From Siphonodentalium dalli (lineage: Eukaryota > Mollusca > Scaphopoda > Gadilida > Siphonodentaliidae): a DNA stretch of 64,000 bases. Positions within the stretch are counted from its first letter, which is position 1. Each line of letters begins with the position of its first letter. The translations under genes and the position numbers were made by a program. The DNA lies in assembly GCA_032622095.1 (NCBI GenBank), contig CP136065.1:21192134-21256133 (forward strand), in the 5' to 3' direction. Under the pieces are notes generated by a model. The model was given only the letters and a program-made list of their open reading frames with translations. It did no database searches and was not told the origin of the DNA. Shown here one piece after another: positions 28,161 to 61,320 of this stretch.

Positions 28161-30560
28161 TAGCTCAACTTTACTTTGTAAAGTTTGAGCTATTGCCATG
28201 GCTTTGTCGTCCGTCGTCCGTGTGTACGTGTGTGCGTGTGTACGTGTGTACGTAAGGCGTCAACAATGCAGTCTACAGGTCGTACCTTTGGTCGGATCAT
28301 TATGAAATTTGTCATAGCTGTTGACATCAACATTTAGACCAGAATGATTAATTTTGGGGTCATTCGGTAAAAAAACATGGCCGCCAGTGGCCATCTTGCA
28401 TTTCAAAATTCAATCCATTAGCACGGGCTACAGGGCGTACTGTTTGTCTGATCGTCATGAAATTTGTCATGGATGTTAATATTGACATGTAGATGGGAAC
28501 GAGTCATTTTGGGGTCATTCGGCCAAAAAACATGGCCGCCAGCAGGCATCTTTGATTTCACTCTTTGTATGACTAAATCCTTTAGCACGGGCTACAGGTC
28601 GTACCTTTAGTCCGATCATCATAAAATTTGTCATGGCTGTTGAAATTGGAATGTAGATGGGAACGAGTCATTTTGGGGTCATTCGGACAAAAAACATGGC
28701 CGCCAGCGGCCATCTTGGATTTCAAAATTCAATCCATTAGCACGGGCCACAGGTCGTACCTTTAGTCTGATCATCATGAAATTTGTCATGGGTGTTAATA
28801 TTGACATGTAGATGGGAACGAGTAATTTTGGGGTCATTCGGCCAAAAAACATGGCGGCCAGCAGCCTTCTTGGATTTTACTCTTTGTATGACTAAATTCT
28901 TTAGCACGGGCTACAGGTCGTACCTTTAGTCTGATCATCATCAAATTTGTCATGGATGTTAATATTGACATGTAGATGGGAACGAGTAATTTTGGGGTCA
29001 TTCGGCCAAAAAACATGGCCGCCAGCAGCCATCTTGGATTTTACTCTTTGTATGACTAAATCCTTTAGCACGGGCTACAGGTCCTACTTTTAGTCTGATC
29101 ATCATAAAATTTGTCAAGAATGTTAATAATGACATGTAGATGGGAACGAGTCATTTTGGGGTCAATCGGCCAAAAAACATGGCCGCCAGCAGCCATCTTG
29201 GATTTTACTCTTTGTATGACTAAATCCTTTAGCACGGGCTACAGGCCGTACCTTTAGTCTGATCATCATAAAATTTGTCGTGAATGTTAATAATGACATG
29301 TAGATGGGAACGAGTCATTTTGGGGTCATTTGGCCAATAAACATGGCCGCCAGTGGCCATCTTGGATTTCAAAATTTAATCCATTAGCACGGGCCACAGG
29401 TCGTACTGTTCGTCTGATCATCATAAAATTTGTCATGGATGTTAACAATGACATTTAGATGGGAACGAGTAATTTTGGGGTCATTCGGCCAAAAAACATG
29501 GTCGCCAGCAGCCATCTTGGATTTTACTCTTTGTATGACTAAATCCTTTAGCACGGGCTACAGGTTGTACCTTTAGTCTGATCATCATAAAATTTGTCGT
29601 GAATGTTAATAATGACATGTAGATGGGAACGAGTCATTTTGGGGTCATTCGGCAGAAAAACATGGCCGCCAGCAGCCATCTTTGATTTTACTCTTTGTAT
29701 GACTAAATCCTTTAGCACGGGCTACAGGTCGTACCTTTAGTCTGATCATCATAAAATTTGTCATGGCTGTTGAAATTGGAATGTAAATGGGAACGAGTAA
29801 TTTTGGGGTCATTCGGCAGAAAAACATGGCCGCCAGCAGCCATCTTTGATTTTACTCTTTGTATGACTAAATCCTTTAGCACGGGCTACAGGTCGTACAT
29901 TTAGTCTGATCATCATAAAATTTGTCATGGCTGTTGAAATTGGAATGTAAATGGGAACGAGTCATTTTGGGGTCATTCAGACAAAAAACATGGCCGCCAG
30001 TGGCCATCTTGGATTTCAAAATTTATTCCATTAGCATGGGCAACAGGTCGTACTGTTCGTCTGATCATCATGAAATTTGTCATGGTTGTTAATATTGGAT
30101 TTTACTCTTTGTATGACTAAATTCTTTAGCATGGGCTACAGGTCGTACCTTTAGTCTGATCGTCATAAAATTTGTCTTAGATGTTAATAATGACATGTAG
30201 ATGGGAACGAGTCATTTCGGTGTCATTCGGCCAAAAAACATGGCCGCCAGCAGCCATCTTGGATTTTACTCTTTGTATGACTAAATTCTTTAGCATAGGC
30301 TACAGGTCGTACCTTTAGTCTGATCGTCATAAAATTTGTCTTGGATGTTAACGATGACATGTAGATGGGATACAATCATTTTGGGGTCATTCGGCCGAAA
30401 ACATGGCCGCCAGCAGCCATCTTGGATTTTACTTTTCTCTTCATGTCTATAAACTAGTATTAGACAGTCAACTTTCCACATTCCTAATCGCTCCATTGAC
30501 TGTAATACATTAAATTATTCCCTTTCCAAGTTGAGCTACAGTGTCATTGACACTTTCATT
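28161..30560. mobile_element. Large repeat element, copy 2: about 14 tandem units of about 160 bp
   Basis: Same orientation and edges as copy 1 (tagctcaactttactttgta ... ttccaagttgagctaca). A (tgtgtacg)-rich leader lies at 28218-28250. The units are more uniform than in copy 1, and most read 'agcacgggctacaggtcgta'. The right flank 'cattcctaatcgctccattg ... tgtcattgacactttcat' is shared with copy 1, which shows a common element end. Confidence 0.8.
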
Positions 30561-30627: not shown

Positions 30628-30881
30628 CAAGCCTTGAAATAGGGCGTCTGTCATTTGCAGAATGAGGTCCCCAGAGGGTGAATTTAGTGATGCTACCCCG
30701 CATAGCGGGCTAGCATTACCAAATTCACCCTCTGGGGACCTCATTCTGCTTACACCTCAGCAGAATGAGGTTCCCAGAGGGTGAATTTGGTGATGCTAGC
30801 CTGCTATGCGGCGTAGCATCACTAAATTCACCCTCTGGGGACCTCATTCTGCAAATGACAGACACCCTATTTCAAGGCTTG
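30628..30881. mobile_element. hAT-type double-palindrome MITE with perfect 8-bp target duplication
   Basis: The ends are CAAGCCTTGAAATAGGG and complement. Two 'gcagaatgaggt' palindromes stand side by side (30658-30750 and 30760-30852). An exact 8-bp repeat GCTGTGGC flanks the element (30620-30627 and 30882-30889), supporting hAT-type insertion. The internal arms are almost identical, which suggests recent activity. Confidence 0.8.
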
Positions 30882-35000: not shown

Positions 35001-38000
35001 ATAAATATATATAAATAGGGCAAATTATAAGTCGAAAAAATCCAATAACTCATGCAAAAATAACTTGACCTCACCCGTGTTCGAACATGATATGTACATT
35101 TGGTTGAGAAACACACATTTCAACTGTAGCTCGGATAAAATTATAAAACTGGAGTCATCGGTCGGATATCATGTTACCAAATCAGGTTACTTGTAATATA
35201 AGTCAAAAATGGTCTGTAAACTCATGAAAAAGTCATTGGACTAAACTCATATTATATATTGATCTGATTTTTTTGGTTAACAAACACACACACTTTGGTC
35301 CTGGTTAAACAAACCACACTGAAAGCAAAATGTTATCAAATCAGGTAATTTATAAGTCGAAATTTCTAATTTCTCACTCCACATATTTAAATCTGATTGG
35401 GTAAAGGTGTAGCACGGTGCCTATAAATTAACCTACACCTATACTGACACGTACATAAATGCTGCAATTCCCTATTAAGTTTCTTATAATTTAGGTAACT
35501 TACCAGCTGAGAATATAATAACTGTATTGTTCCAGATTCCCTTCTTTTTAAGGCTCAATGTGATATTCCCGATGGCTTCGTAACCATGGCTAAATAATAA
35601 TAATAAAAAAATAATTAATATTAAAACGGTTTCTAGGTAAAGTATTCACATGAAGTCAAATAAGCTTGTGAAACTAAAAAATCCTGAAACTTTTAATGGA
35701 GATCGAACGCGGATACCATAGGTCGCCTCGCATATATAATAGAATGCACTGGCCTAACAATTTTAATAATTTTTTCTTGTATTCTTTAACAATTTTATAA
35801 TTTCACCCATACAGAGCCCCAGACAAACATGAGCAGACGACACTCTTCTATATGCTTCTATATATGTGTGGGGCTCCCTGCAGGGTAATGGATGTTTTTT
35901 ATTTTATGTCCTAAAACTTGTCAGAAACATTTATTTAAAACAAATTTATAAAAAATTGTTAGGCCAATGCATTCTCTTATATATGCGAGGCGACCTATGG
36001 TCGACTCGCATATATAAGAGAATGCATTGGCACAGGGTAAAAAAAATCCCGACTTACGACTGGATTTGATATTGCTGGGGTTCAGTGGTGCTACAGAGTC
36101 GTCTCGTTTGCGATTTTTATTCCGACTACGTGTATACGGATTTGTTGTTATTTTTCGGCCAGTTTGATTGTGGAAAACATACGTTGTCGAGTGAAAATTG
36201 TTATGGCAAGTATGAAATAGTGACGATTTCGTCCCATTTGTTCGGAACGAGATGAATGTACACATGCAGCACCTATACCATTAAAGTGATGTGAAACACT
36301 CCGACAGGGTGGTCAAATAGAAATGGAGAATAATCTTGCTCAAAGTAGTTATGTTTACGAATATTAATTCAAATTATAAACAGACCGTCATTCTGATATA
36401 TAAATAAAATACATTGACTCTCGATGGCGAAATAATTTGTGTTTCTTTATCGCCGATAGTTGCGTCTCGAATCGAGATGTAAATATTTACAATTAAGTGT
36501 AGTTCAGACGATGATTTCTATGGAGTGGTATGGTCGATTTTAGGAGAATGATACAACCCCCAGGTTGGCATAATCCTGAGCACTATCTTATCAGTTTCAC
36601 TCACACGAACAAATCAATAATATGTCTTTAAAGTGATGTGAAACACTCCGGTATGGTGATCAACTAGAAATGGAGAATAATATCAGAGTAGTTATTTTTA
36701 CAAATATTATATCCAAATTGGCAACACATGCCGTCATTGTTATATATTAAATGCATTGACTCTCAAAGGTGAACTCGTTTTCGTTAGTTTATCGCCGACA
36801 GAAGCGTCCCGATTCGAGTAGCAAATATTTACAATTGAGCGTAGTTCGGACAATGTTTTCTATGGAGTGGTACGGTCGATTTGCTTGAGATTTTCGGTGA
36901 GGTTTTTAGAATGCTACATTCCTCCAGTTAACCATCACCTGAATACTAAATTACCAGTTTCACGCACCCGAACAAGTACATAACATGTCTTTAAGTTTCG
37001 AATACCAGATCACATTATATACAACATATACCATAGTACCGGTATATACAATTGAAAGAGAAAGCTCCAATACATCGTATATTATCAACTTATCTGGTCG
37101 ATTAATCTCTGAACATCTTATTTGTGAATTGTGATGCATTCTGGGGGTAAATAAAGTGGAGAAGTCTTGGTGTGAATCTGAGAATCTGTCACTTGGTGGA
37201 AACTTCTAGGCCAAAGCTTTTCCCCATTCCGGTGGATATATATTTTATGTGGTTCCTCTTCCAAACGGTATATAATATAGAATATGTTTTATTTAATGTG
37301 ATCTGGGCATTCGAAAATCAAGTGGCCCTTTAATAAGATGATCGATAGAGGCGTCTTGGTTTGTCCATACGATCAGCGATGTATATACGTCCATGATACG
37401 ATGAGGCGATCAGCCAGATTTTTCCTTGAATTTCTTAAATTCCAACTTCGGCATCAGTGCTGAGATGGGATAAGCCATGCCAATTAACTGAGATGGAATA
37501 AGCCATGCTAATTATCTGAGTTGGAATAAGCCATGCTAATTAACTGAGATGGAATAAGTCATGCTAATTAACTGAGATGGAATAAGCCATGCTAATTAAC
37601 TGAGATGGAATAAGCCATGCTAACTAACTGAGATGGAATAAGCCATGCTAATTAACTGAGATGGAATAAGCCATGCTAATTAACTGAGATGGAATAAGCC
37701 ATGCTAATTACCTGAGATGGAATAAGCCATGCTTAATTAACTGAGATGGAATAAGCCATGCTAATTAACTGAGATGGAATAAGCCATGCTAATAAACTGA
37801 TATGGAATAAGCCATGCTAATTAACTGAGATGGAATAAGCCATGCTAATAAACTGAGATGGAATAAGCCATGCTAATTAACTGAGATGGAATAAGTCATT
37901 CTAATTAACTGAGATGGAATAAGCCATGCTAATTAACTGAGATGGAATAAGTCATGCTAATTAACTGAGATGGAATAAGCCATGCTGTCCGGTTCCGTGG

Positions 38001-41114: not shown

Positions 41115-44100
41115 CCCCGCCATGACCACTGCATGATGTTACATAAATTATTCTTAGCGTTATGTCGGCGAAAAAAGGCAATTTTTTGAGGCACATCATG
41201 TGTGGTTGCTCCACTACGTGTCACGTACGATTCATATTATAAGAGATATATAGTGCTCGAACGAGAAAGCTGAATAGAAAAGTTATAGTGATATACAATG
41301 CGTATAAGCTGAATTTTAGAGGTGTGGTGCTGCAATGTGTAACTTGAGTTCAATATAAGAGGTACAAAGTCATAGCGCTGGTGAATATGACCCATATAGT
41401 GTAACGAAATTCCTGCAACAAAACGAATTTGAATTTAAGATCTTATATTGACCGTCACATGATTTACAATATATTCCTAACATGTGATTCAGTACCTATT
41501 AATTATCCGCTAGAGGTTATATAATTTGTTATTTAACTTGTCAGACTTATTAGTGAAGGACATTTTTATTTATGTCACCAAGTCAGTCAAAATTTCTTAA
41601 GACATTTTTCAGCTTAATAACATTGAAAATACTTGCGATCATTGGAATTTCATTGGAAGTGCATTTGTCTAACAAACAATCAAAATACATTTAGAACTTC
41701 GTCTTTTGAAAGTCTATACTTCAGACATTAAAACATTAATATCGTATGCATCAGTGACTTATGCAATAAATCAATCAATCAATCAATCAATCAGTGGGGA
41801 GTGACCTCTACCGAATTCGTTTTACTCGGGGTAACATTTTATCGTGAAAGCTGAACTATATAGCAAATTTACGTGTGTGTGATTATATAAGACCAGGGGA
41901 GGGTTAATTTCACTTTGATGTTCCTTTATAAATATACATATACAAAATACCATACCATAGTGAGTGTCGAAGCCTCTATTAGTCGGCATGTATTCAGACC
42001 TATAGAATCCTATGTGCCATTTGCCCACGGCATGAGTATCGTACCCTGCTTCCTTCAACTTGTCCGCCAATGTCGGGCTGTCCAAGGGCAGACCACTCGG
42101 CTGGGCAGGTTTGATGATGGAATGTTGCAGACCGAGATGAATCTGAAATTATGAAGGTTTAAAGCTGCTCGATTCCTGACAGCATGCTCCGCATTTCTAT
42201 CTCATGTTGTCACATAGATGTATAACTACCAAGTAATTCCATTGTCACAGAGGACGCGTTGGCGTTCAAAGCCACTTTGTCAAAGATTCAAGGTCACGCG
42301 GGTTGCGGCATTAAAATATCATTAAAACATTTCCAGATTGCTTTGTGTTAGTTTTTTTAATTTATATCTTTAGTGTTAGAATATAAAACACACGCACTGT
42401 TTGCAATATACCGTACTCGGGGTGGGGTAAAGTTCATTTAATAAAATGCAATTGCCACATATAGTTCATCTTTGTGCTTGCTTATACCGCATGCAGGTAG
42501 GGGAAATAATTGCATCGGCTCATACATGTAATATCGTATTATTGTGTTTAATTAGGTCAGACCCATACCACACGAATCGCTGTAGTCATGTGCATTATAC
42601 CATCCAATTTAACAAAGCACAGATTCATTCAAATGAACAATTATATTTTATAAAATGGTTTTCTTATATCCTAAAGTCATATGAATAACGTAATGTTAGA
42701 ATGAATTAGGTCGACATTTTCCACATGGGTCTTCTATACACCTTAAACAGGAGCGCGCCTGAAGCAACCAATGATACGGTGTGCACTTTTTCGAAGGTGA
42801 TGGCATAAATGTGACCCGCCATATCAAATCCAGTCGGAAGTCGGGATTTTTTTACCCTGTGCCAATGCATTCTCTTATATATGCGAGTCGACCATAGGTC
42901 GCCTCGCATATATAAGAGAATGCATTGGCCTAACAATTTTTTACAATTTTAATAATTTGTTCTTGTATTCTTTAACAATTTTATAATTTCACCCATACAG
43001 AGCCCCAGACAAACATGAGCAGACGACACTCTTCTGTGTGCTTCTATATATGTGTGGGGCTCCCTGCAGGGTAATGGATGTTTTTTTATTTTATGTCCTA
43101 AAAATTGTAAGAAACATTTATTTAAAAAACATGATTAAAAATTGTTAAGCCAATGCATTCTCTTATATATGCGAGGCGACCTATGGTCGACTCGCATATA
43201 TAAGAGAATGCATTGGCACAGGGTAAAAAAAAATCCCGACTTCCGACTGGATTTGATATGGCGGGTCACAAATGTGGAAAATGCAAACTCTTGGTATACA
43301 GCGAGTTAATGCATTTCCAGGACCAAGCTCATATTCACATACTATAATGGATATACTTGTCGTTAAGGACATTATGACACAATAGGCATACCAAGCCATA
43401 TCAAACCATACCAAGCCATATCAAACCATACCAAGCCATATCAAACCATACCAAGCCATATCAAACCATACCAAGCCATATCAAACCATACCAAGCCATA
43501 TCAAACCTTCGCGGATCGCGGATGAAACATTGTGTTGCAGCAAACAGTCATGCTAAGTCCATCTGCCTAATATGGGTAACTGTTATTCCCGTTGACATAT
43601 AACGTGAACATTAAAGAATCGAATGCTAGCTTGAAATACCTGTATAGTAATGGTACTCAATCCGATCAGACGGTCCCCATATCATCAAGTTACATCAACA
43701 ACAACAACAACAACATTTCTTTAAAATACTCTCTTGTTATCAGAATCGATTAATTACAAAATATAATGCTAACCACCGTCAACTATGGTATAAAATTTCC
43801 CAAAACAAGTTATTTATCAACATGTTGTTCAATGAAATATGGCCGTATCATCACTTGAGTATCACGAAATTTGGCCGTATTACCACTTGATTTTAGAGTT
43901 ATCCATCTTCATCCGCAATTTTGTCATAGGCCGCCGGTTTGACAACTTTTTGCCAGGCCACAAATAAGTACACATTTCGAGAAATAAAAAATTTCAAAAA
44001 TCGATATCGGATCACTCTGAGCTTTGATGGTGGGTTCCTCGACTCGAATCAAATATTTTTACCCCCCCCCCCATCCGAAGCGAAAGAAACAGTAATTTTA

Positions 44101-47100: not shown

Positions 47101-49501
47101 TCAGTGTTAACAAATCCCGCTGGCCTGTATTCGCAGGAAAGCTTTGACCCTGCACGAGTATTTGAATTAACGAACGTCCTTTTAGACACACAGAAATGTA
47201 CCCAAAAGTACTTGTAAACGTGGTAAATCACACTGCAGCTTGACAAACGTCACACTATACCCTTAAAATTGAGAAAAAATGACATCGAAAAAAACACAAA
47301 CACCTCCCATAAATTATTCGCCATTTGCACAGCCATAACCGTTTACCATGTGGTTATATTTTATGTTTCTCGACTGGAAACACATTTGTGCATTTTTTCG
47401 TACACTTTTCATCCATGTATCATTGACCATTCAGCTGCCAGAAGTTTTTTTATGCTGATCCTAGCTTGGTAGTGCCAGGGGAAATCACTCTACTAATTTG
47501 TATTTGGTGTATTGTAACCAAAACATGGAAATCTCATCATGCTAGAAAGTATTGAATGCTATTTAAAGCCACAATCCAGATTTTTTTTTTTTAACACAAT
47601 TTCACATCAAAGCCATATGAATGCTGATCAATCTGTTAAACGCCATGTTGTCAGATAGTATAAGATCGTGTGGGTCCATTACTATTTAGCATAAATGTTT
47701 TGCCTAAATTTTTATTTTATATTTTCGATACAGTTGTATTTGAAGTGATTACAGACAAGCATTGGAAATATGGTAAAATGTTCATATAACTTGTTTACAA
47801 GTCATGAGTCAATTGATAAACAAAAACAAACAGGATAACAATTTAAATGGGTGCTGCAGGTTTATACGATTCTTATCTGTTCTCAGACTTTATAACTGAA
47901 ACAAATACCAAGCCTAAATGGTGTGAGACTACAGATTTTAGGTAAAACGTGGGTGGGTACCCTGCATGAAATTGGAAAAAAAATCCTTCAAATAAGGGGT
48001 GATTTGGCTGGATTTGGAGGTAAAAAGGGGGTGGGTACCCCGCATGAAATTGGAAAAATATTTTTTCCTTCAAATAGGGGGGTGGTGGGTACACAAGAGG
48101 CGGAACAAAACTTTCAGCCTACTGTCATGACACTTTTTTCCGACCCCCCCCCCTGCTCTCACACAAAAAAAGTGATGAAGGGTGCACAGGTTTCGAAATC
48201 TCGTTCTAACTGACTTTTAGTTTTCATGTCTGACATGATTTCTGTAAGAGAAAAATTTCATGCGTGCCAATGAAAATTAAAATGAACTGAAAACAAACTG
48301 CTGATGCATGGGCGCAAGACTTTCAGGAGCAGAGTCGAAGTAACTGCATTATACTGCCGATCACAAACCCTGCATGTGTATCCTTCAGCACATTTTCAAA
48401 CTCTGTGTACCCTTCAGCACTTTTCAAACCCTGTGTACCCTTCAGCAGTTTGTTTTGTGAGAATGACCCCTTCAGCTATAATATACATACGATCAATTTG
48501 GGACATTTTAGGCGTTCGTTGGGAGCTTATAGCATGCCTGATAACACTATCTAAAATTTATAAAAATACTAACGAAATATATAAGAAAATACCCACAATA
48601 TAAAAAATATCAATTGATGGAATCGTTACCGGGCAGGTGTCTGCAGACAGTGGACGCTCTTAAGTGTTTCGTGCCGATTTTGTTTCTAAACTTATTCTTT
48701 TAAATATGGTAAAATCCATATAAAAGTATTTCTCACATTTATCGCCCTATATTGTTGTCCCCGAATTTCGAAATCGGTCCGGAATGTGACACATACAAGC
48801 GGGCATTACATGTGTGATGTCGATTGGGTGTCAATTTAAAGATGCCCTGTCCGTTCGACACCATTAAAACACTATTCTGTACGTTGTGTTTGCCAGAAAT
48901 AAAATAGGAGGCTTAGATCGCCATAATTATTTCGACTTTCAAAAAGTGGAATTTTTCACCGTTTTGAATGTTTGTCAGCCTAACAAACAAAAATCAACGA
49001 ACGATCGTCTCTTTTAAACAATGTCAATGCGCCCCCAAAGTGATATATAATAAAGAACTTTCTTAATTGTGATATACTGTACTACTTTTCGACGTAAAAC
49101 TCCATAATTGATGATTTGTTTTTTTTTCCGCGATTACGGTATACGAATGATGGTGATTGTAAATTTGACTAATTTCAATCAACTACGATTGGGGGTGGGC
49201 ATAATATTCCCACTGCAAGCAGGTGCGCGAAAATAGAATGCAAACTTAGTGTAAGGTATACCTGATATCTCCCGGACATAAGTTGTAGCCGGGTGGGGCT
49301 GCATATAGGCTGTACGTAATAATTCTCCAATATAACCCCTTCCCTGGCCAGAAGGTCCATGTTGGGTGTCCTGATTTCAGATCCGTGATATCCGATGTCG
49401 TTATATCCATAATCGTCCGCGAGAATGAATACTATGTTTGGCCTGGAAGCAGTGGCTGCCACCCAAACAGCGATGGAAATGTAAACCTCTAACAGCAGCA
49501 T
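31720..49501 (-). CDS. Arylsulfatase B/I/J-type sulfatase gene with a frameshifting deletion in exon 5
   Basis: Secreted or lysosomal sulfatase. Family members use a formylglycine made from Cys to hydrolyse sulfate esters of glycans. Coding exons (transcript order): 49501-49262, 42142-41956, 40743-40541, 38919-38808, 35589-35504, 34811-34568, 33070-32919, 32066-31720, all GT-AG. Features: signal peptide (1-19), metal-binding DD (29-30), CSPTR with the modifiable Cys67, GKWH (K121, H123), PFQAPH (exon 4), DNGG and NWPLRGNKG (exon 6), HNIDP (exon 7), WLFNI (exon 8). The eight-exon layout and motif order match ARSB. The CDS totals 1571 nt, which is not divisible by three, because exon 5 lacks a few codons around MVT/EAIGN (see that exon). 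The C-terminus has a hydrophobic tail ([15 protein letters not shown]). Subfamily B versus I/J is not resolved. Confidence 0.9.
32220..32770. mobile_element. Truncated piggyBac-type hairpin MITE joined to a copy of a repeat of about 350 bp
   Basis: TTAACCCTTCCATGACTCGAG at 32220 and one hairpin (32269-32344) belong to the hairpin MITE family; its right end is missing. From about 32397, 'ttgttcgggtgcatgaaatt' to 'ggagtgtttcacatcacttt' is an inverted copy of the repeat found twice in tandem at 36280-36990. Confidence 0.6.
32919..33070 (-). CDS. Sulfatase exon 7
   Basis: It encodes [16 protein letters not shown], then [17 protein letters not shown]. The HNIDP block and the 'A.R.G..KL..G' block are hallmark C-terminal sulfatase motifs. 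Acceptor ctgcag, donor gtaggt. Confidence 0.9.
33071..34567 (-). other. Sulfatase intron 6
   Basis: 1.5 kb. It contains G-rich 'gggggtgccaggtcggtaat' and 'ttccaac' style degenerate repeats (33780-34540), related to those at 38200-38390 and 50700-51000. No exon is recognised. Confidence 0.5.
34568..34811 (-). CDS. Sulfatase exon 6
   Basis: 80 codons plus split codons: [59 protein letters not shown]. It contains the metal-binding DN pair and the active-site Lys of NWPLRGNK. This is the best conserved exon of the gene; donor gtatgt. Confidence 0.94.
35504..35589 (-). pseudogene. Sulfatase exon 5, carrying a frameshifting deletion
   Basis: Spliced from exon 4 in the correct phase it reads A-M-V-T (ATG GTT AC), as in the family's YA(G/A)MVT/MLS motif, then shifts. 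The next family-like residues, [20 protein letters not shown], lie in another frame. Relatives have about three more residues (x-L-D) between MVT and EA, so roughly 10 nt appear to be missing at about 35581. The phase-correct frame hits TGA at 35557-35555. Splice sites (tag acceptor, gtaag donor) are intact. Explanations: a null allele, a pseudogene or an assembly/sequence error. Confidence 0.8.
35700..36071. mobile_element. Left-truncated hairpin MITE (ATATCAAATCCAG family)
   Basis: A half hairpin (35715-35756), the middle 'cccagacaaacatgagcaga', an intact hairpin (35964-36030), and the right end aatcccgacttacgactgga. It is the same family as the complete copy at 42811-43269, in the same orientation. 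It lies in sulfatase intron 4. Confidence 0.7.
36280..36990. repeat. Two tandem copies of a repeat of about 350 bp
   Basis: Each starts 'aaagtgatgtgaaacactcc' (36284 and 36631) and continues through 'gtagcaaatatttacaattg' and 'ttctatggagtggta' to 'cacgcacccgaacaagtaca'. A third, inverted copy is at about 32397-32745. No coding capacity; the type is unknown. Confidence 0.65.
37450..37985. repeat. 28-bp minisatellite, about 19 copies
   Basis: The unit 'ctgagatggaataagccatgctaattaa' is repeated with few changes (occasional aagtc, aataa). It lies in sulfatase intron 4, between exon 4 and the broken exon 5. Confidence 0.92.
37986..38807 (-). other. Sulfatase intron 4, exon-4-proximal part
   Basis: Short inverted copies of 'ccatatatgga' and 'ggttccgtggtt' (38000-38130), a 'ttggaaattttccaac' motif, a G12 run (38335-38348) and a gtctgtctgtc stretch at 38538. 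No exon is seen. Confidence 0.5.
38808..38919 (-). CDS. Sulfatase exon 4
   Basis: Encodes [20 protein letters not shown], then a YNRRIYA end. The FQAPH His matches the family's active-site His. It ends GCAG with donor gttaag, phase 1. Confidence 0.9.
38989..40496. repeat. Three copies of a 250-480 bp repeat, both orientations
   Basis: Direct copies at 38989-39245 (partial) and 40024-40496, and an inverted one at 39538-39965. They share 'ttaattttcgaacccccaaa', 'ataccatttgaaagaggaag' and 'gagacacagacg'. A further copy is at 52050-52520 and a relative at 37010-37330. It lies in sulfatase intron 3. The neighbouring inverted copies could pair in RNA. Confidence 0.7.
40541..40743 (-). CDS. Sulfatase exon 3
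   Basis: [20 protein letters not shown], then [20 protein letters not shown] and [16 protein letters not shown]. It corresponds to the ARSB LLGSEDYYSH...CALDFRDG...Y region. Phase 1 in, phase 0 out, donor gtgaga. Confidence 0.9.
41029..41111. repeat. (TC)n microsatellite
   Basis: About 40 uninterrupted TC dinucleotides, ending in a C run. It yields spurious poly(Arg-Glu) ORFs on the minus strand. It lies in sulfatase intron 2. Confidence 0.98.
41956..42142 (-). CDS. Sulfatase exon 2
   Basis: [52 protein letters not shown]. It contains the catalytic Lys and His of GKWH and the family's RGFD block. Phase 0 in, phase 1 out, donor gtatgg. Confidence 0.94.
42811..43269. mobile_element. Complete hairpin MITE (GTGACCCGCCATATC family)
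   Basis: TIRs of about 45 bp: gtgacccgccatatcaaatc and complement. Two hairpins (42862-42928 and 43150-43216) are nearly identical to those in the piggyBac-type TTAACCC elements, although these TIRs are unrelated. The middle contains its own inverted segment (gagccccagaca ... tgtgtggggctc). There is no ORF. It lies in sulfatase intron 1. Confidence 0.8.
43389..43507. repeat. 20-bp minisatellite, about 6 copies
   Basis: The unit 'ccaagccatatcaaaccata' is tandemly repeated almost without variation. It lies in sulfatase intron 1. Confidence 0.95.
43645..44130. mobile_element. 480-bp MITE-like repeat, copy 1
   Basis: It starts 'ggtactcaatccgatcagac' and ends 'ggattatgcatctttaac'. The ends form an imperfect inverted repeat (TTAAAG..C..AATCCGA). 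Other copies are at 50198-50640 and 58385-58832, with a fragment at 7500-7650. A C10 run lies at 44062. Non-coding. Confidence 0.65.
44131..44778 (-). other. Sulfatase intron 1, no feature recognised
   Basis: No exon or repeat was recognised here apart from short duplicated phrases ('gatatgaccacgcctata'). Confidence 0.45.
44779..45176. mobile_element. piggyBac-type hairpin MITE, inverted copy of 4366-4765
   Basis: TTAA (44779-44782) CCCTTTACCCAACAAACC ... TGTTGGGTAAAGGG TTAA (45173-45176). Hairpins at 44932-44998 and 45079-45145. Nearly identical to the copy 40 kb away but in the opposite orientation, so recently mobile. It lies in sulfatase intron 1. Confidence 0.82.
45177..49261 (-). other. 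Sulfatase intron 1, first 4 kb of the intron: small duplications only
   Basis: Noted: a 43-bp tandem duplication ('atgtatatgtaagacataat', 46379-46465); a G10 run with 'gggtgggtgggtgg' (46650-46705), a family also seen at 58930 and 59300; three related 'gtgggtaccc...catgaaattgga' units (47945-48095); short 'cccttcagca' repeats (48380-48450). No exon was recognised. Confidence 0.5.
49262..49501 (-). CDS. Sulfatase exon 1
   Basis: 80 codons from ATG at 49501. Signal peptide [19 protein letters not shown], then [31 protein letters not shown] and [19 protein letters not shown] is the formylglycine motif (C-x-P-x-R), with Thr instead of the common Ser at position 4. An upstream in-frame TTG is not a plausible start. 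Phase 0, donor gtatac. Confidence 0.94.
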
Positions 49502-50197
49502 TGCGACCAGAGTGTGTTCCAATTATTAAATATCGCCGAGCAAAACAGCCTCTTGAACTGATAGTAGATAAAGTGTAAAAACCCTTCAATGGAAAGTGAT
49601 CTGTACTATGTTCGCTGATATTTCTCTGGAGCAAATTGCCGTCGTAGCGATTATGATTTATTGACAAAATAATTGTTTAACTGATAAAATAACGTTTAAG
49701 AAAAAATGTAGAAAACAGACCTCCCAACACATTCGCGAACTCTTGTAGAAAACCTATTTAATCCTGGTTGGAGATTGCATAGAGCTATAAACTCCAGGGC
49801 ATGTTGTTACAATTTGACAATGGTCGTTATATTATTGATGTGAGCGATTCCGTGCGGCAGCTTTAATTGTTGTCATACCCCAACTTTTCGAAGAAAATGG
49901 GACGGGGCGTAGTATATTGACTTTATCCGTCCGGTCGTCCGTCTAGCCGTCCGGCAGTCCATCATTCCCTCCGCCGTTCATTGTTGTATTCGGGTAATAA
50001 CTTTAATTCTACGGAACCTAATGGACTGAAATTTGGTTTGTATCTTCAATATCACAAGACACATGTCAAGCGACACCCCTTTGTTGACATTGGGGCTCAA
50101 TTTTCATGTTAACCGAATGGAATTATATTTTGGTATGAATGTTTACAAACATATGTTGTCTTGATATATCCTTGAGATCACCTCTGATACCAGGGCA
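49502..50197 (-). other. Upstream of the sulfatase; simple-repeat-headed element
   Basis: The promoter is expected just above 49501 but no motif was assigned. At 49900-50190 a 'gtccgtccggtcgtccgtc' stretch leads into 'ataactttaattctacggaa', resembling the simple-sequence-headed repeats common in marine invertebrates. Confidence 0.4.
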
Positions 50198-52966: not shown

Positions 52967-55900
52967 CTATAAAGACACCGAAAACTTCACAACTATACAG
53001 GTTTGATTTGGTTTATTGGACGCTATTGGCCATATCACAGATATTTTTTGTGGATGGAGGAAAGACCGCGCATTTTGTCAATTTCACTGGGAAATTACTC
53101 TATATTGCACATAGAAACAACCGAACAACCGGGTAGCATCTGGTAAACATGCCCAAATGCTCGAATCAAATTACCAAACAAATCGAGGTAATCGGGATTA
53201 GGGAAACAGCTTCGCTATAAATGTCCGGTTGTGTTGGCCTAATCCAACATGTCACCGCGGGCACACATGCACATTTACAGGCATTTGACTATATATATAT
53301 ATATATAGTAACTAATATAAAAGTAAATCATTAGTCCTTTAAGTCATACTTGGTTTATGTCAAATTTACTTTAGATTTCCATACGAAATGACTCGGGGGG
53401 GGGGGTTACGAGTTGACTCAGCTGGAGGTTACGGGTTGACTTATAATCGGGTTGACTTTTTTCGGAGGGTTCGAGCTGGTCAGGGTACGAAATGGCTTTC
53501 TGCCCTTTAGTGCACATATTGATCGTGTTCAGTAAATCTATATTATGTACACCCGACTCTCAGCATGCGGAAAAAAAAACTATAGATATAAGCATGTCAG
53601 TCCATGTCGATAATCGATAGTGTAAATCAAATAGCAGGGAAATAATACGAGGCTAAAACTGATTAGTCACTAACAAAATGTACTACTGAATAACACGAAA
53701 TATCAACAAAATAAGCCTTGATATTGTTTAATGATGTATAATAACCATGACTGGTATAAATTTACCTTGGTAAGCAATACTAAGCATAGCATAATCCAAA
53801 ATAAAAAAACATTATATCCAATTCCTACACTGAACTCCCATATTGAACATGTGGCATAACAGGTGATGAATGTGATGTCATGAGGCAGTGACCAGGTCAA
53901 GGGTTACATGGAAAAGTATCAGGCCATGTTATTGGTCAAAAGGTGGACATTCCCCCTAGATTCCCTGGGACTTAACCTGAAGACCCCGGATTTCACAAAA
54001 CATGTTATGTCTTTTCTTGGATTCTTATGTTTTAATTGGTTACACAATTTCAAGGAAATCTCGGTTTGTTTGCATTATGAATGTTTGATTCCGATTACAC
54101 GATCAGAATCAGAATCCAGATTACAACGAAATAACGATTACGGTCTGTTCGTTTACCGATTCTGGGCTGTTTGTGCGGAGTGTAATCCGTAATCTGAATC
54201 GAGATTCTCCCACGAAATAACGACTCTGCCGAAGCCAAACAAAAGAGGTCGCGTGGGCGTTGACGTCATACTCCGAGGGAAGACCTGTGTGTGTATATAT
54301 AGCGGTGGAAATACGAAGGTCGGCCACCCCAAACGAAGAACGTCCAGTCCAATCACACAGACGACAGGAAGACGCACTCAAATTATGAAGAAAAGCCGAC
54401 GAAAATCCTATCGTATGTACGTCTCTATATTTGTGGACTCAAATTAGTTTCTGTATTGATGGGATTCCCTCCATTTCATTGGAGAGTACGTGGCGCGCAA
54501 TTTCATTGGTTAATGACGTAACAGATAACTTCAAAGATCAGAGGTCAATGACATGTTGACAATATTGTCAAACACAACTATTGTTGTACAACTGAATACG
54601 ATATATTCATAGTCCATTATACTCATCGCAATACAGGAGACATCATCTTCGAGTTTTTACCAGTCAACGATATTCACAACTCATTGTTCCTTCGCATCTT
54701 GTTGTATTTATAACTATTTCTTAATACTACGATTCCCACAAACATTTACTGCATGCCCCAGGAATGCATTCCATATTTGGAAATGATTTATTACGCCATG
54801 TTGAGAAATCCGCGTTGTCGTAGAAATGAAATATAATGGAGAGATCTAGAGACGTACATGCGATAGGATTTTCGTCGGCTTTTCAAAGAGACTGCATGAG
54901 CCATGCCCCTAGTCCCTGTTTAGCACGCCCATAACTCACCAGCACTGTTCTGGCACTCGCCGCACGTATCAGCGGGGGAGCCATTCCTCTCTTCGAGCAG
55001 CACTCTTCGACCGCGGTGATTTCATCAGGAATGCTCTCATCATCTTCTATTGTCTCCGTATATGAGACGCTTCGTATGTCGAAGAACTTCTTTGTCGTTA
55101 TGCCGGCAGCCGTCGCGAATTCCTGCAAGTAGGAAATAAACACGAATCATTGTTTATGCTTCATCCACACTGGACAAATATGTCCTGATAAAATTACATT
55201 CTTCACAGATGACCAGTATGTAAAAGCAAATGACAAAACTGCCCAGAATTAATAATAATGGTAACTGTTAAATTACATATACACTTCCACACGAGACACA
55301 ATTAAATCAAAATAACAAACATATATAACACTGTTAACAATAATGGAATATAATATATACAATATATATATTCCTAATTATCTCATTATTATACCAGTAA
55401 AATTTGACCTATCTTTGAAAACAATTACGGAACATGTTGCATATTATGCTATGTTGCATGTTTGTGGTTAGTCATTTTTCAATATATATATATGAATTTT
55501 AGGCTATCACTCAATCTAATAAAATTACCACTCTTTTACGCATCTTATCATAATTATGTGTTGCAGCGTGTTACAAGTGCATGTTCTTCATTCTCAATTT
55601 CATGTTAAATTTCCAACAAATTATTTCGTCGAGTGGCACTTTTGGATGTTTGTGACCATTTTCAATTTCCGATTATGTTTACTAATACTTAGTTTACAGA
55701 ACATCTTAGTGTGGATAATCTGGACTATATTCAGGTACGGTCCTTTTTTGTATTGCTGTTTGACTACACGATACGTCCTTGTTAAAATGTTAATATATCT
55801 ATAGCAGATGATGTGTGTTTGAATGATGAATTCCTACATCAACACGATTCCTAAGTGTTAAAATGGTGAACACCTATACCTCAACATGATTCACACGGGT

Positions 55901-58900
55901 CAGAATGCTGAACACCTATACCTCAACATGATTACTAAGTGTTAGAGTGCTGACGGCCTACCTCAACACGATTCATAAGTGTTAGAATGATGAAGAACTA
56001 CCTCAACGTGATTCCCAAGTGTTAGAGTGCTGACGGCCTACCTCAACACGATTCATAAGTGTTAGAATGCTGAAGACCTACCTCAACATGATTCCTAAGT
56101 GTTAGAGTGATGACGGCCTACCTCAACATGATTACTAAGTGTTAGAATGCTGACGGCCTACCTCAACACGATTCATAAGTGTTAGAATGCCGAAGATCTA
56201 CCTCAACATGATTCCTAAGTGTTAGAGTGCTGACGGCCTACATCAACGTGATTCCCAAGTGTTAGAGTGCTGACGGCCTACATCAACACGATTCATAAGT
56301 GTTAGAATGCTGAAGATCTACCTCAACATGATTCCTAAGTGTTAGAATGCTGACGGCCTACCTCAACATGATTCATAAGTGTTAGAATGCTGAAGACCTA
56401 CCTCAACATGATTCCTAAGTGTTAGAATGATGAACACCTACCTCAGCATGACTCCCATGTGTTAGAATGATGAACCATACCTCAATATGATTCCTAAGTG
56501 TTAGAATGGTGAACACCTATACCTCAACATGATTCCTGAGTGTTAGAATGGTGAACACCTATACCTCAACATGATTCATGAGTGTTAGAATGGTGAACAC
56601 CTATACCTCAACATGATTCATAAGTGTTAGAATGGTGAACACCTATACCTCAACATGATTCATAAGAGTTAGAATGGTGAACACCTATACCTCAACATGA
56701 TGCATAAGTGTTAGAATGGTGAACACCTATACCTCAACATGATGCATAAGTGTTATAATTATGAACACCTACCTCAGCATGACTCCCATGTGTTAGAATG
56801 CTGAACCATACCTCAATATGATTCATGCGTGTTAGAATGATGAACACATACCTCAATATGATTCCTAAGTGTTAGAATGATGAACACATACCTCAGCATG
56901 ACTCCCATGTGTTAGAATGCTGAACCATACCTCAATATGATTCATGTGTGTTATAATTATGAACACATGCCTTAATATGATTCCTAAGTGTTAGAATGAC
57001 GAACACATACCTCAACATGATTCATAAGTGTTATAATTATGAACACCTACCTCAGCATGACTCCCATGTGTTAGAATGCTGAACCATACCTCAATATGAT
57101 TCATGCGTGTTATAATGATGAACACATATGCCTTAATGTGATTCATAAGTGTTAGAATGCTGAAGACCTACATCAACATGATTTCTAAGTGTTAGAATGG
57201 TGAACACCTATACCTCAACATGATGCATAAGTGTTAGAATGGTGAACACATATACCTCAGCATGATGCATAAGTGTTAGAATGGTGAACACATATACCTC
57301 AACATGATGCATAAGTGTTAGAATGGTGAACACCTATACCTCAACATGATGCATAAGTGTTAGAATGGTGAACACATATACCTCAACATGATGCATAAGT
57401 GTTAGAATGGTGAACACCTATACCTCAACATGATGTATAAGTGTTAGAATGGTGAACACCTATACCTCAACATGATGCATAAGTGTTAGAATGGTGAACA
57501 CCTATACCTCAACATGATGCATAAGTGTTAGAATGGTGAACACCTATACCTCAACATGATTCATAAGTGTTAGACTGGTGAACACCTATACCTCAACATG
57601 ATTCCTGAGTGTTAAAATGATGAATACCTACCTCAACATTATTCCTAAGTGTTAAAATGGTGAACACCTACCTCAACATGATTCCTAAGTGTTAAAATGA
57701 TGAACACCTACCTCAATATGATTACTAAGTGTTAGAATGGTGAACACCTACCTCAACATGAATGATTCCTAAGTTTTAGAATGGTGAATACCTACCTCAA
57801 CATGATTTCTAAGTGTAAGAATGGTGAATACACATACCTCAATATGATTCCTAAGTGTTAGAATGCTGAAAACCTACCTCAACATGATTTCTAAGTGTAA
57901 GAATGGTGAATACACATACCTCAATATGATTCCTAGATGTTAGAATGGGGAACACCTATACCTCAACATGATTCCTACTTTTTAGAATGATGAAAACCTA
58001 CCTCAACACAATTCCTAAGTCCAGCAGCATCCAACCCAACGGTTTCTGGGAGTTCCATCAGAGTACCAACTTTCCTGTAAGCTGCCGATTCGTATTTCCT
58101 CATTTCTACCTCAGTGTTCACCTTCGATGTGAACTTCCTTGAGTTCGCTGCATAAAGCATAGAATGTCCATCGTCATAAACTATAGGTGTGATCTTTCTC
58201 ACGTCCTGAAATGGTGTAGCGTGCATGAGGTGAGATATTGAACGCTCAGATCAGAAACAGGTTGATACAGTATTTCTTTGTTCACATGTGTCAGGAGGAC
58301 TGTTACAAATGCAGATCAATCAGAACCAGGACCTACATCACCATCTATAAAGTCTTTGGTTAAAACACACTCTTTAAAAAAACGCTCTTTAAATGTGCTC
58401 AATCCGATTCAATGGTCCCCATATCATCAGATTCCAACAACATTTTTTAAGATGCCGCTTCAGTTATCAGAATCGATTAATTGCTCAAAAATAATGCTAA
58501 CCACTGTCAACTATGGAATAAAATTGCCCGAAACGTGTTATTTATCAACATGTTGCTCGACAAATTTGGCCTTATTGTCAACAGAAAGCCTCTTGATTTT
58601 AGAGTTATCCATCTTGATCCGCAATTTGGTCCGAGGCGGTCGGCTCGTCAACTGTCTACTGGGCCACTTATAATTCTCGATTGTGAAAAATAATATTAAA
58701 AAAAAAATCGATATCTAATAACTCTGAGCTTTGATAGGTGGGTTCCTCGACTCGAATCAAATTTTTTTTTTTACCCCCGAATCCAAATAAATAGTAATTG
58801 ACGAGCGCTTAATCGGATTATGCATCTTTAAAACACACTCTTTAAAAAAATAATGCTTTTAAAAATAAAACGCTCTTTTACAATTTGTTCACTGATTTGT

Positions 58901-61320
58901 TACTAATTTTTTTTATATTTCTGCATATCTCAGGGGGGGGGGGGGGGGGGGGGGTTGGAAGAAAAAAAAATTCCGGGCACGTATGCCGGGGTGGGTGGGT
59001 GGTCGATAGGACCAACAAACAATTTTTTCCGCAACTCAAAACAATTTTTCCTGCAAGTCTTTTTGACTGTTTTTGCAATGAGTTTGGCTTAAAACACATA
59101 TATATGTCAATATTAACATAACAGACAAACAGTATAGCCTGTAGCCCATGCTAATGGATTGAATTTTGACCGAATGACCCCAAAATGACTTGTTCCTATT
59201 TACATGTCAATGTTAACATCCATGACTAATAGTATGCACAGAAATTCATATACAGCTGTTTACTGTGAATTTCCCCACGCATATCTGTTTTAGTGTTAAA
59301 AGGGGGGGGGGGTGGGTGTCAAAAAATGGTCGGAAAAAACTGCCAAAAACGGAAAAAATTTGGACGCGGGGGTGGGTGGTTCCCAACAAGGGTCGAAAGT
59401 CAAAAATCAGCATACGTGACTGCACATTTTTTCCGACCCCCCCCCGCATATCTCCGCTATTTAGTCAATATAATCGCCCATGCACCTTCGATTAAACTTC
59501 GATACTCATTTTGAAACACAATGCTGACATTGCGTGGCACCTGTTACACGGATTGAATACCAATCTCTATTTAATCGTGAATCCCGATTATATTGTTTTA
59601 TATCTAATAATTGGCGTAATGGCTGACAATATAGATGTTAATACAGAATGGACTTACATCAAATACTTTTTACTGCAAGATAATTTACAATTGAGAATAA
59701 GTTTCGTCTATAAATGAATGGTCACTGTAGCTTACGGTGCACATAGGCTTTCATAGTGCCATGAAGTGCTTTCAGTCAAGATTGAGAATGGGCATATATG
59801 ACTCATAGTGTCGTCTGTTTGTAACGTTAGCTCTATCATGACGGGAGCTGTGCTAGGGCTGATGCAGCATTGAAGATCCTGTTCCAGCATATTCTCTTAT
59901 ATATGCAAGTATCCCCCCCCCCGGGAAGCCTCGCATACATAAGAGAATGCACTGGCTTACAAGGCCATGGTGAATATAGTTAGGCCAATGTATTCTCTTA
60001 TATATGCCAGGTTCCCTATGGGAGACTCGAATATATAAGAGAATGCACTGGCACAGGGTTTTCGCGTAATTTCAGGAAGCTGCAGTCATAGAAGAGTTAA
60101 TAACAAATAAACATTTCTGGACAAATAACACAAAATAAAATGTACAAAAGTGATGTAATAAAATAAGACGTATTTAGTTTATGAAATGTGATAATCTTCT
60201 AAAAGTGTATGTAGTACTAGTAGACATATCATGGGAATACTATCCAATAATATAAAATGATTTATTAGCTCATTCCATAGCTTTCGGCCATAGGCCTTCG
60301 TCAGTAGAAAACGATCAACACAGTAAAGTCTACATGTTGCTCTGACATCAACTCATTCGTAAAATGGAATGAGCTAATAAATAATTTATATCAATGACAA
60401 TTGGTCCCATTATCTGGATTTTATACATATAATTATCCAATAATATATTGGTATAATCATAGAGCTACCAAATTCTAATTAGTGTATTAATTTATTGAGG
60501 TTGTATAATAATTAGTCATAGTTGAACGGCTAAACTGGAGTATATAATTATGAATAACAAAAGATGTTTATGCAGTCTTTACATTCCCGGCATTTTTGCA
60601 TATAATACATTCTCTTCCTACGACGTTTACTTGATTCCCATAATCACATTTTAGCCCTTTGCCCTCACGAAGTATATAGTCGAAACTGACCCAGTACCAG
60701 ACATCCAGTCTGAACGCAAAATTTAACCACGTGTACCCTTTCCCACTTTCGCTAAATCGTGTGTAACCTTAACCACTCTCTGCCAAGCCTCTGCCATTTT
60801 CCAGTTTTTGTTTGGTGAAAGCGGCCCATCTAGAAGTACTGTATTCACGAATGCAAACACACACATACCCTTTGACCAATGGCGAACGTTCTCAGAACAA
60901 ACACACACATACCCTTTGACCAATGGCGAACGTTCTCAGGACATCAGTCGACAATTGTTTTGAACACGTAAGTGGTTTCGTAAATACTGGACGGGAGCTG
61001 GTAGAATCATCCCGTCTCTTCCTCATCGGTAACCGTCGGGGTGTGTTGCGCGCTTCCAATGAGCGTCGGACGCTGGGAGTTAACATAGAACGTGACCTGT
61101 CCTCCGATAAGAGTTTATCGAACACCGAAGTGAAAACGAGATCAGTTGAGTTCTGTGTAGTACGTTTGTCCAATCTAACAACCGGCTTGGTCGATTCGTA
61201 AGTTTCTCGATCTGTGAGCATCGCGCTACTTAGTGGAGTGTTTAGCGAGATACAACCAAGTCTAGACAATTCTCGCGAGAATGGGGGAACAGTCCCAACT
61301 CTGTTACCTGAACGAACCAT
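52814..61320 (-). CDS. Unrecognised four-exon gene, 315 residues
   Basis: Exons in transcript order: 61320-60913 (136 codons), 58205-58002 (68), 55122-54940 (61), 52966-52814 (50 plus TGA). Every junction is GT-AG and phase 0. The ATG is preceded in frame by a stop. Seen: a Ser/Thr/Arg-rich basic N-terminal third (RRLPMRKRRDDSTSSRP); a mixed middle (VRKITPIVYDDGHSMLYAAN, YRKVGTLMELPETVGLD); a segment with a CC pair; an acidic run (IEEEDEDDAE) and a Trp-rich end (WVEPVAKFDRNIWQNVSNQW). There is no signal peptide, membrane segment or known catalytic motif. I do not recognise the family. The style, with short conserved blocks in a basic disordered chain, would suit a structural or cytoskeletal/ciliary protein, but that is a guess. 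Confidence 0.8.
52967..54939 (-). other. Unknown gene, intron 3
   Basis: Apart from the inverted repeat at 54390-54884, it holds an (AT)n run near 53291, a G11 run (53395-53407) and no recognisable coding sequence. The ORFs at 54121-54447 overlap each other on both strands and look incidental. Confidence 0.5.
54390..54884. repeat. 38-bp inverted repeat pair separated by about 420 bp
   Basis: 'gaaaagccgacgaaaatcct' (54390-54427) recurs inverted at 54847-54884, with one or two mismatches over 38 bp. It could be the TIRs of a MITE. The right arm ends 56 bp from exon 3 of the unknown gene. Confidence 0.7.
54940..55122 (-). CDS. Unknown gene, exon 3
   Basis: Residues 205-265: EFATAAGITTKKFFDIRSVS, YTETIEDDESIPDEITAVEE, then CCSKRGMAPPLIRAASARTV. 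Acceptor cttgcag, donor gtgagt. Confidence 0.8.
55838..58002 (-). repeat. About 50-copy minisatellite (40-42 bp unit) derived from an exon/intron junction
   Basis: On the coding (minus) strand a unit reads ...CTTAGGAATCATGTTGAG|GTAGGT, then gttcatcattctaacac. This matches the end of exon 2 (CTTAGGAATTGTGTTGAG|GTAGGT, then tttcatcattcta) base for base except a few sites. Variants carry GTATAGGT, GTATGTG or GTAGGC after the GAG. The array starts exactly at the donor and fills the first 2.1 kb of the intron. Confidence 0.9.
58002..58205 (-). CDS. Unknown gene, exon 2
   Basis: Residues 137-204: DVRKITPIVYDDGHSMLYAA, NSRKFTSKVNTEVEMRKYES, AAYRKVGTLMELPETVGLDA, then AGLRNCVE. Acceptor atttcag, donor gtaggt. 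The donor is the first of about 50 near-identical donor-like sites downstream. Confidence 0.82.
58385..58832. mobile_element. 480-bp MITE-like repeat, copy 3
   Basis: 'ctttaaatgtgctcaatccg' to 'atcggattatgcatctttaa'. Same family as 43645 and 50198. It lies in intron 1 of the unknown gene, 180 bp upstream of exon 2. Confidence 0.65.
58920..59490. repeat. G-run / 'gggtgggtgggtgg' repeat pair
   Basis: A G22 run at 58933-58954, followed by A-rich and 'ggggtgggtgggtggt' sequence. A related unit (G10 at 59301-59310, 'ggggtgggtggttcccaac', ending in a C9 run) lies at 59290-59450. A third relative is at 46650-46740. Confidence 0.6.
59829..60100. mobile_element. Diverged piggyBac-type hairpin MITE
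   Basis: Left 'ctatcatgacgggagctgtg'; hairpins at 59887-59954 and 59985-60051; right 'tttcaggaagctgcagtcat' and gagttaa (TTAA 60097-60100). A C10 run sits in the first hairpin loop. Confidence 0.65.
60260..60382 (-). ncRNA. Hammerhead-like motif inside a short stem-loop element
   Basis: Minus strand: box CTGACGA (60304-60298), one extra A, stem II GGCC/GGCC with a 3-nt loop (60296-60286), then GAAA (60285-60282) and a minimal AGCT stem III ending at UA. An 18-bp stem closes the unit: atttattagctcattcca (60260-60277) with its complement at 60365-60382. It has the same layout and the same extra A as the motif at 793-849. A retrozyme or Penelope-like relic is likely. Confidence 0.5.
60854..60940 (-). 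repeat. 44-bp tandem duplication spanning the exon 1 splice donor
   Basis: 'ggcgaacgttctcag' plus 'aaacacacacataccctttg' occurs twice in direct succession. Each copy holds a GGTCAAAGG|gtatgtgtg donor. Only the upstream donor (exon end 60913) keeps the reading frame; the second would add 44 nt and run into TGA. Confidence 0.85.
60913..61320 (-). CDS. Unknown gene, exon 1
   Basis: Residues 1-136: MVRSGNRVGTVPPFSRELSR, SSAMLTDRETYESTKPVVRL, DLVFTSVFDKLLSEDRSRSM, then the basic RRLPMRKRRDDS segment and LSTDVLRTFAIGQR. The in-frame TGA 12 nt upstream and the phase-0 donor fit exon 2. Confidence 0.75.

Follow-up and report, generated by a model that had tools for sequence, protein, structure and literature searches.

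The predicted gene that carries the array

The window, that is, the whole 64-kb stretch of DNA analysed here, contains a predicted gene on the minus strand in which three successive exons were recognised. Predicted exon 1 (60913-61320, 408 nt) starts with an ATG at 61320 and stays open for 136 codons up to its phase 0 end at AGG|GTATGT; predicted exon 2 (58002-58205, 204 nt) has an AG acceptor, an open frame with phase 0 at both ends and the donor GAG|GTAGGT; and predicted exon 3 (54940-55122, 183 nt), likewise in phase 0 at both ends, lies between an AG acceptor and the donor CTG|GTGAGT. Joined in phase 0, the three encode 265 residues. The search for homologues of the predicted protein covered Pfam and PDB; the joined 265 residues had no Pfam match and the product of exons 2 and 3 had no PDB sequence match. 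The window had no Rfam match at gathering thresholds. Predicted intron 2 (55123-58001, minus strand, 2879 nt) is taken up over 2187 nt (76%, from the coordinates) by a minisatellite, which is the subject of this analysis.

Just past exon 3 (about 54390-54890), some 20 bases were seen by eye to recur on both strands, 450-500 bp apart, and the pair resembles a small inverted-repeat element. Farther along the minus strand, Pfam Sulfatase matches were found in the open frames 49178-49522 (E 2.5e-12) and 41825-42148 (E 1.5e-10), which are probably exons of an arylsulfatase gene lying downstream of the array-bearing gene.

A minisatellite of 54 units crosses the predicted exon 2 border

The minisatellite occupies 55815-58020 on the minus strand, and these limits were given alike by TRF (40-bp unit, 54.0 copies, score 2484) and by an independent wrap-around alignment, in which most of the 54 units measured 39-42 bp and one measured 44 bp; the first unit is partial, and a 5-base remnant is present besides. 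A sequence-only reading of this DNA had described a minisatellite that copied a 5' splice site about 50 times, which both methods confirmed, and its unit of 40-42 bp was about right, although the actual range is wider. The bounds that it gave, 55838-58205, do hold an array, but they begin 23 bp short of the true start and take in the whole of exon 2 at the other end, where 58021-58205 is unique exon sequence outside the array.

The unit consists of the end of exon 2, the donor and the first intron bases. The edge of the array lies 19 nt inside predicted exon 2, rather than exactly at the junction as had been proposed, and from there the array crosses the donor GAG|GTAGGT into intron 2, the last 19 nt of the exon forming the first, partial unit. 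Seventeen of these 19 bases are identical to the unit consensus in the wrap-around alignment, and the 24-mer at the exon 2/intron junction differs from the 40-bp unit by 3 mismatches. The earlier description of a unit that repeats some 18 bases of the exon end together with the donor and the start of the intron is thus upheld; alignment of the unit to the exon 2 border had been named as a point on which that description could fail, and a match was found.

A dispersed repeat was considered as a candidate and rejected within the 64-kb window: one 24-base stretch of the unit, searched across it with up to 3 mismatches, gave 19 matches, the junction 24-mer among them, all inside the array (0.00 expected from shuffles), and no copies outside it. 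A search of viral contigs with an exact 21-mer from the 42-bp unit found 0 matches, which is of little weight.

Donor copies and their strength

The sequence GTAGGT at 57996-58001 (minus strand), presumed to be the true donor of exon 2, has a PWM score of 9.02 and a U1 duplex energy of -10.4 kcal/mol; these values, and all other donor scores and U1 energies given here, depend on the donor PWM and the U1 end that were adopted. With the true donor counted, the GT is retained in 52 of the 54 units, and the remaining two have GC. The three donor classes that the sequence-only reading had listed are real, but the list was incomplete, as ten classes occur at the homologous site across the 54 units: GTATAG (16 units), GTAGGT (12, including the true donor), GTATGT and GTAGGC (5 each), GTATGG and GAT|GTAGG (4 each), GTATAT (3), GTAGAT and AAG|GCAT (2 each) and GTAGTT (1). 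A PWM score of at least 7 was reached in 26 of the 54 units, namely by the true donor, by eight of the nine units numbered 2-10 and by 17 of units 11-54; dozens of look-alike donors do lie downstream, as the sequence-only reading had stated. With itself included, the true donor's score is equalled or exceeded at 12 sites of the array, a density of 5.4 per kb; over the rest of the window such sites occur at 0.15 per kb per strand. Eight array copies pair with U1 at -12.3 kcal/mol, more strongly than the true donor does. If strength were the only factor, the first donor could not be counted on to be used exclusively, since eight of the nine neighbouring units are strong and eight copies have better U1 pairing.

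Read-through beyond the true donor of exon 2 meets an in-frame TAG after 8 codons, and hence transcripts spliced at any later donor would carry an early stop. The proposal that the array could provide many alternative exon 2 ends found no support here, as any downstream donor brings the stop after 8 extra codons and would therefore be unproductive.

The exon 1 donor lies in a two-copy duplication

TRF also detected a 44-bp tandem duplication over the exon 1 donor (60854-60943, minus strand, 2.0 copies, 97%). Forty-two bases are identical between the copies, 27 of them exonic and 15 intronic, with a 24/24 match around the donor and a donor copy 44 nt downstream, and read-through beyond AGG|GTATGT leads to a stop after 6 codons. 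This anatomy, which is that expected of a starting array, suggests that the duplication may be one.

We examined seven predicted borders, two of which were sulfatase donors placed by eye, for their best copy within 500 nt. Only the exon 1 donor (24/24 at 44 nt) and the exon 2 donor (21/24 at 124 nt) had a copy of at least 21/24, and the remaining five had best copies of 13-15/24; the best same-strand copy of the exon 3 donor within this distance was 14/24. Unit 2 being divergent, the best match of the exon 2 donor fell to 15/24 when the range was 120 nt. Among 3000 random points, a copy of at least 21/24 was found within 120 nt for 89 in one run and 91 in another (of the latter, 43 had a perfect copy) and within 500 nt for 324 (106 perfect). 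Given these rates, the border test alone did not show an enrichment of duplications at exon borders, since random points reach such matches too, and the exon 1 duplication by itself is statistically weak; it is the anatomy that carries the suggestion of a starting array.

Turnover within the array

Edit distances between units averaged 5.35-5.58 at lags 1-3, as against 7.3 overall, and blocks of units have variants in common. Both patterns are as expected if the array had grown through local duplication. From its neighbour, unit 2, the junction unit differs by 9 edits, and from units 4, 7, 10, 40 and 48 by only 4. At one site the exon has TTGTG, 35 of the 54 units have TCATG and five units (43, 46, 49, 51 and 54) have TCGTG, a distribution that would fit an ancestral CpG decaying separately in the exon and in the array.

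Conservation of the donor core and folding of the units

The 7-column donor core has a conservation of 0.978, compared with 0.885 for the rest of the unit, and ranks highest among the 31 windows listed; in parsimony steps it is tied with another window. In column shuffles the value for the donor core as a pre-set window was 0.051, and 0.69 of the shuffles had some window equally good. Any sign of selection on the donor core is therefore suggestive for the pre-set window and gone when all windows are taken into account.

We also considered whether the donor copies could be masked in hairpins. The median local folding accessibility of array donors was 0.003 (48 GAG|GT sites, the true one counted), that of the true donor was 0.025, and the median for 9-mers across the region was 0.020. 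Stems of up to 11 bp can form in some units, and the unit with the true donor folds weakly, at -1.6 compared with a median of -3.9 kcal/mol for 53 segments. When class consensus units were compared with tiled dinucleotide shuffles, four of the five classes gave z values of 0.30, -0.84, 0.86 and 0.17; a z of -3.0 (0.003 of shuffles) was obtained for the remaining class, GTATGG (4 units), but this class had been folded as adjacent identical copies, an arrangement that is absent from the array. True neighbour units folded better than random re-pairings (-4.75 vs -4.17, 0.002). Units shifted by one to three positions either way folded about equally well (-4.45 to -4.78), which argues that block similarity suffices to explain the folding of neighbours; one of 52 circular shifts attained the actual value. 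The lower accessibility of the array donors favours a donor-masking hairpin, but the shuffle and shift controls lend it no support, and such a hairpin must be regarded as unproven.

In the class of 42-bp units with an extra TA (units 11-20 and 32-37, about 56500-57620), stems of up to 11 bp are possible, longer than those that most 40-bp units can form, and this capacity may be related to the spread of the class.

Probable growth from the exon 2 border

From the anatomy of the array, its donor copies, the stop beyond exon 2 and the two-copy counterpart at exon 1, we infer with considerable confidence that the array is a large mirage-type minisatellite that grew from the border of exon 2, is neutral, and leaves its first donor in productive use. 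Slippage or unequal exchange would have made a tandem copy of a segment of about 40 bp that comprises the last 19 nt of exon 2 and about the first 21 nt of intron 2, and further local duplications would have raised the number of units to 54. New copies would all have been placed in the intron, leaving the original exon end, the first donor and the reading frame unharmed. Growth from the exon border, which had been proposed from the start, remains the best reading, because the edge of the array lies within a coding exon and because the exon 1 donor has a two-copy duplication. With two copies at one exon and 54 at the next, the duplications in this predicted gene seem to show one and the same process at an early and at a late stage. 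Productive splicing most likely takes place at the first donor, which is exon-proximal, defines a short exon and alone avoids the in-frame stop; use of the later copies would yield unproductive transcripts. The array itself is most likely a neutral product of slippage. For the question of how donors are chosen, it offers a natural test on a large scale: a presumed 5' splice site is followed on one transcript by 53 copies, of which 51 have the GT and eight surpass it in U1 pairing.

Boundary repeats of this kind are already known from lancelet genes, and the present array, with 54 units, is probably a further example of the kind. In amphioxus globin genes, exon/intron boundaries are described as duplicated in tandem in the manner of minisatellites (PMC3087553); such repeats are called mirages, a name that comes from work on Adh3 (Canestro et al. 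2002, as cited in PMC3087553). The globin paper reports a BflGb6 mirage with 6 units in one haplotype and 3 in another, concerted evolution of the globin mirages, and edge units said to escape homogenisation in BflGb6; it notes that mirage copies could serve as cryptic splice sites and proposes mirage growth as a route to intron gain (PMC3087553). The array resembles these mirages in its tandem unit, which spans an exon/intron boundary (the exon here being a predicted one), in its intronic copies, many but not all of which carry splice-site dinucleotides, and in local homogenisation with divergent edge units, the latter seen here at the exon-side edge only, where the distance of the junction unit from its neighbour recalls the edge units of BflGb6. 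It differs in having 54 units rather than 6 and 3, and its unit is about 40 bp, whereas the units of globin mirages are 150-160 bp and those of Adh3 10-72 bp. The donor side is duplicated here and in BflGb9, the acceptor side in BflGb6. For Adh3 and the globins, the authors' data, including RT-PCR, are reported to suggest that regular splicing is undisturbed (PMC3087553). Tandem repeats over splice sites are also reported for lancelet PGBD5, with Adh and troponin C cited alongside; that paper states that no aberrant mRNAs were reported for Adh and troponin C, and its authors infer the same for PGBD5 (PMC3902484).

The minisatellite of human IFI6 (6-16, G1P3; Turri et al. 1995) likewise offers several splice donors, and the IFI6 mRNA is said to use two of the downstream repeat units as donors; in contrast, the later donors of the present array would add a stop, which makes their productive use unlikely. 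Introns that arose from tandem repeats (Zhuo et al. 2007) and tandem repeats at exon-intron boundaries of human genes (treated in PMC2812944) also involve boundary repeats carrying splice signals, but tandem-repeat-born introns are new, whereas here a predicted existing intron has been filled with donor copies. Among the literature matches listed, we found no precedent closer than these systems.

Alternative explanations

It is quite improbable that exon 2 is not an exon and that the array is just a common minisatellite of an intergenic region or an intron: although the lack of a Pfam or PDB match for the predicted protein would agree with this, three successive open phase 0 segments, with an ATG start, AG acceptors, GT donors and 265 codons when joined, argue against it. 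Another history would have a repeat from elsewhere land at the end of the exon, the coding end and the donor now being part of its first unit. Repeat sequence makes up the final 19 coding bases, as expected under either history, and within a single genome an array of outside origin that had come to serve as an exon end could not be told from one grown in place; nonetheless, we regard capture as very unlikely, given that all 19 matches of the unit 24-mer in the 64-kb window fall in the array and given the in-place duplication in exon 1.

Other explanations would give the array a function. The donors might serve as decoys that capture U1 snRNP, so that some transcripts are diverted into stop-containing forms that nonsense-mediated decay destroys, or removal of the intron is delayed, with array length tuning expression. 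The excess of donors that match or surpass the true one, the strength of eight of the first nine downstream units, the stop brought by every later donor and the reported use of repeat units in IFI6 all speak for this idea. Against it stand the lancelet mirages, reported without splicing disturbance (PMC3087553, PMC3902484), and the conservation of the donor core, which is highest of the 31 windows listed and yet tied in parsimony and matched somewhere in 0.69 of shuffles, and we consider decoys unlikely. Alternatively, U1 sites following the exon could suppress premature intronic polyadenylation (telescripting) or hold nascent RNA on chromatin, and splicing from these sites would not be needed. 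U1-pairing sites are dense in the array, and suppression of polyadenylation is reported as an established activity of U1 (PMC3826338), but there is no selection signal beyond look-elsewhere chance, and such a platform seems extremely improbable. It is also decidedly unlikely that the array is kept by function as a whole, its 25 strong intronic donors forming a U1-loading track by exon 2, allele length setting the balance of productive and stop-containing transcripts, and a second track forming at exon 1.

Other repeats in the window

TRF found large satellite-like arrays at 24202-26719 and 28273-30433, with a unit of about 164 bp and 79-93% matches, and a minisatellite at 37460-37986 with a 28-bp unit (18.8 copies, 94% matches). 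At 30657-30852, a 103-bp unit is present in about two copies, and its consensus, judged by eye, resembles a long inverted repeat.
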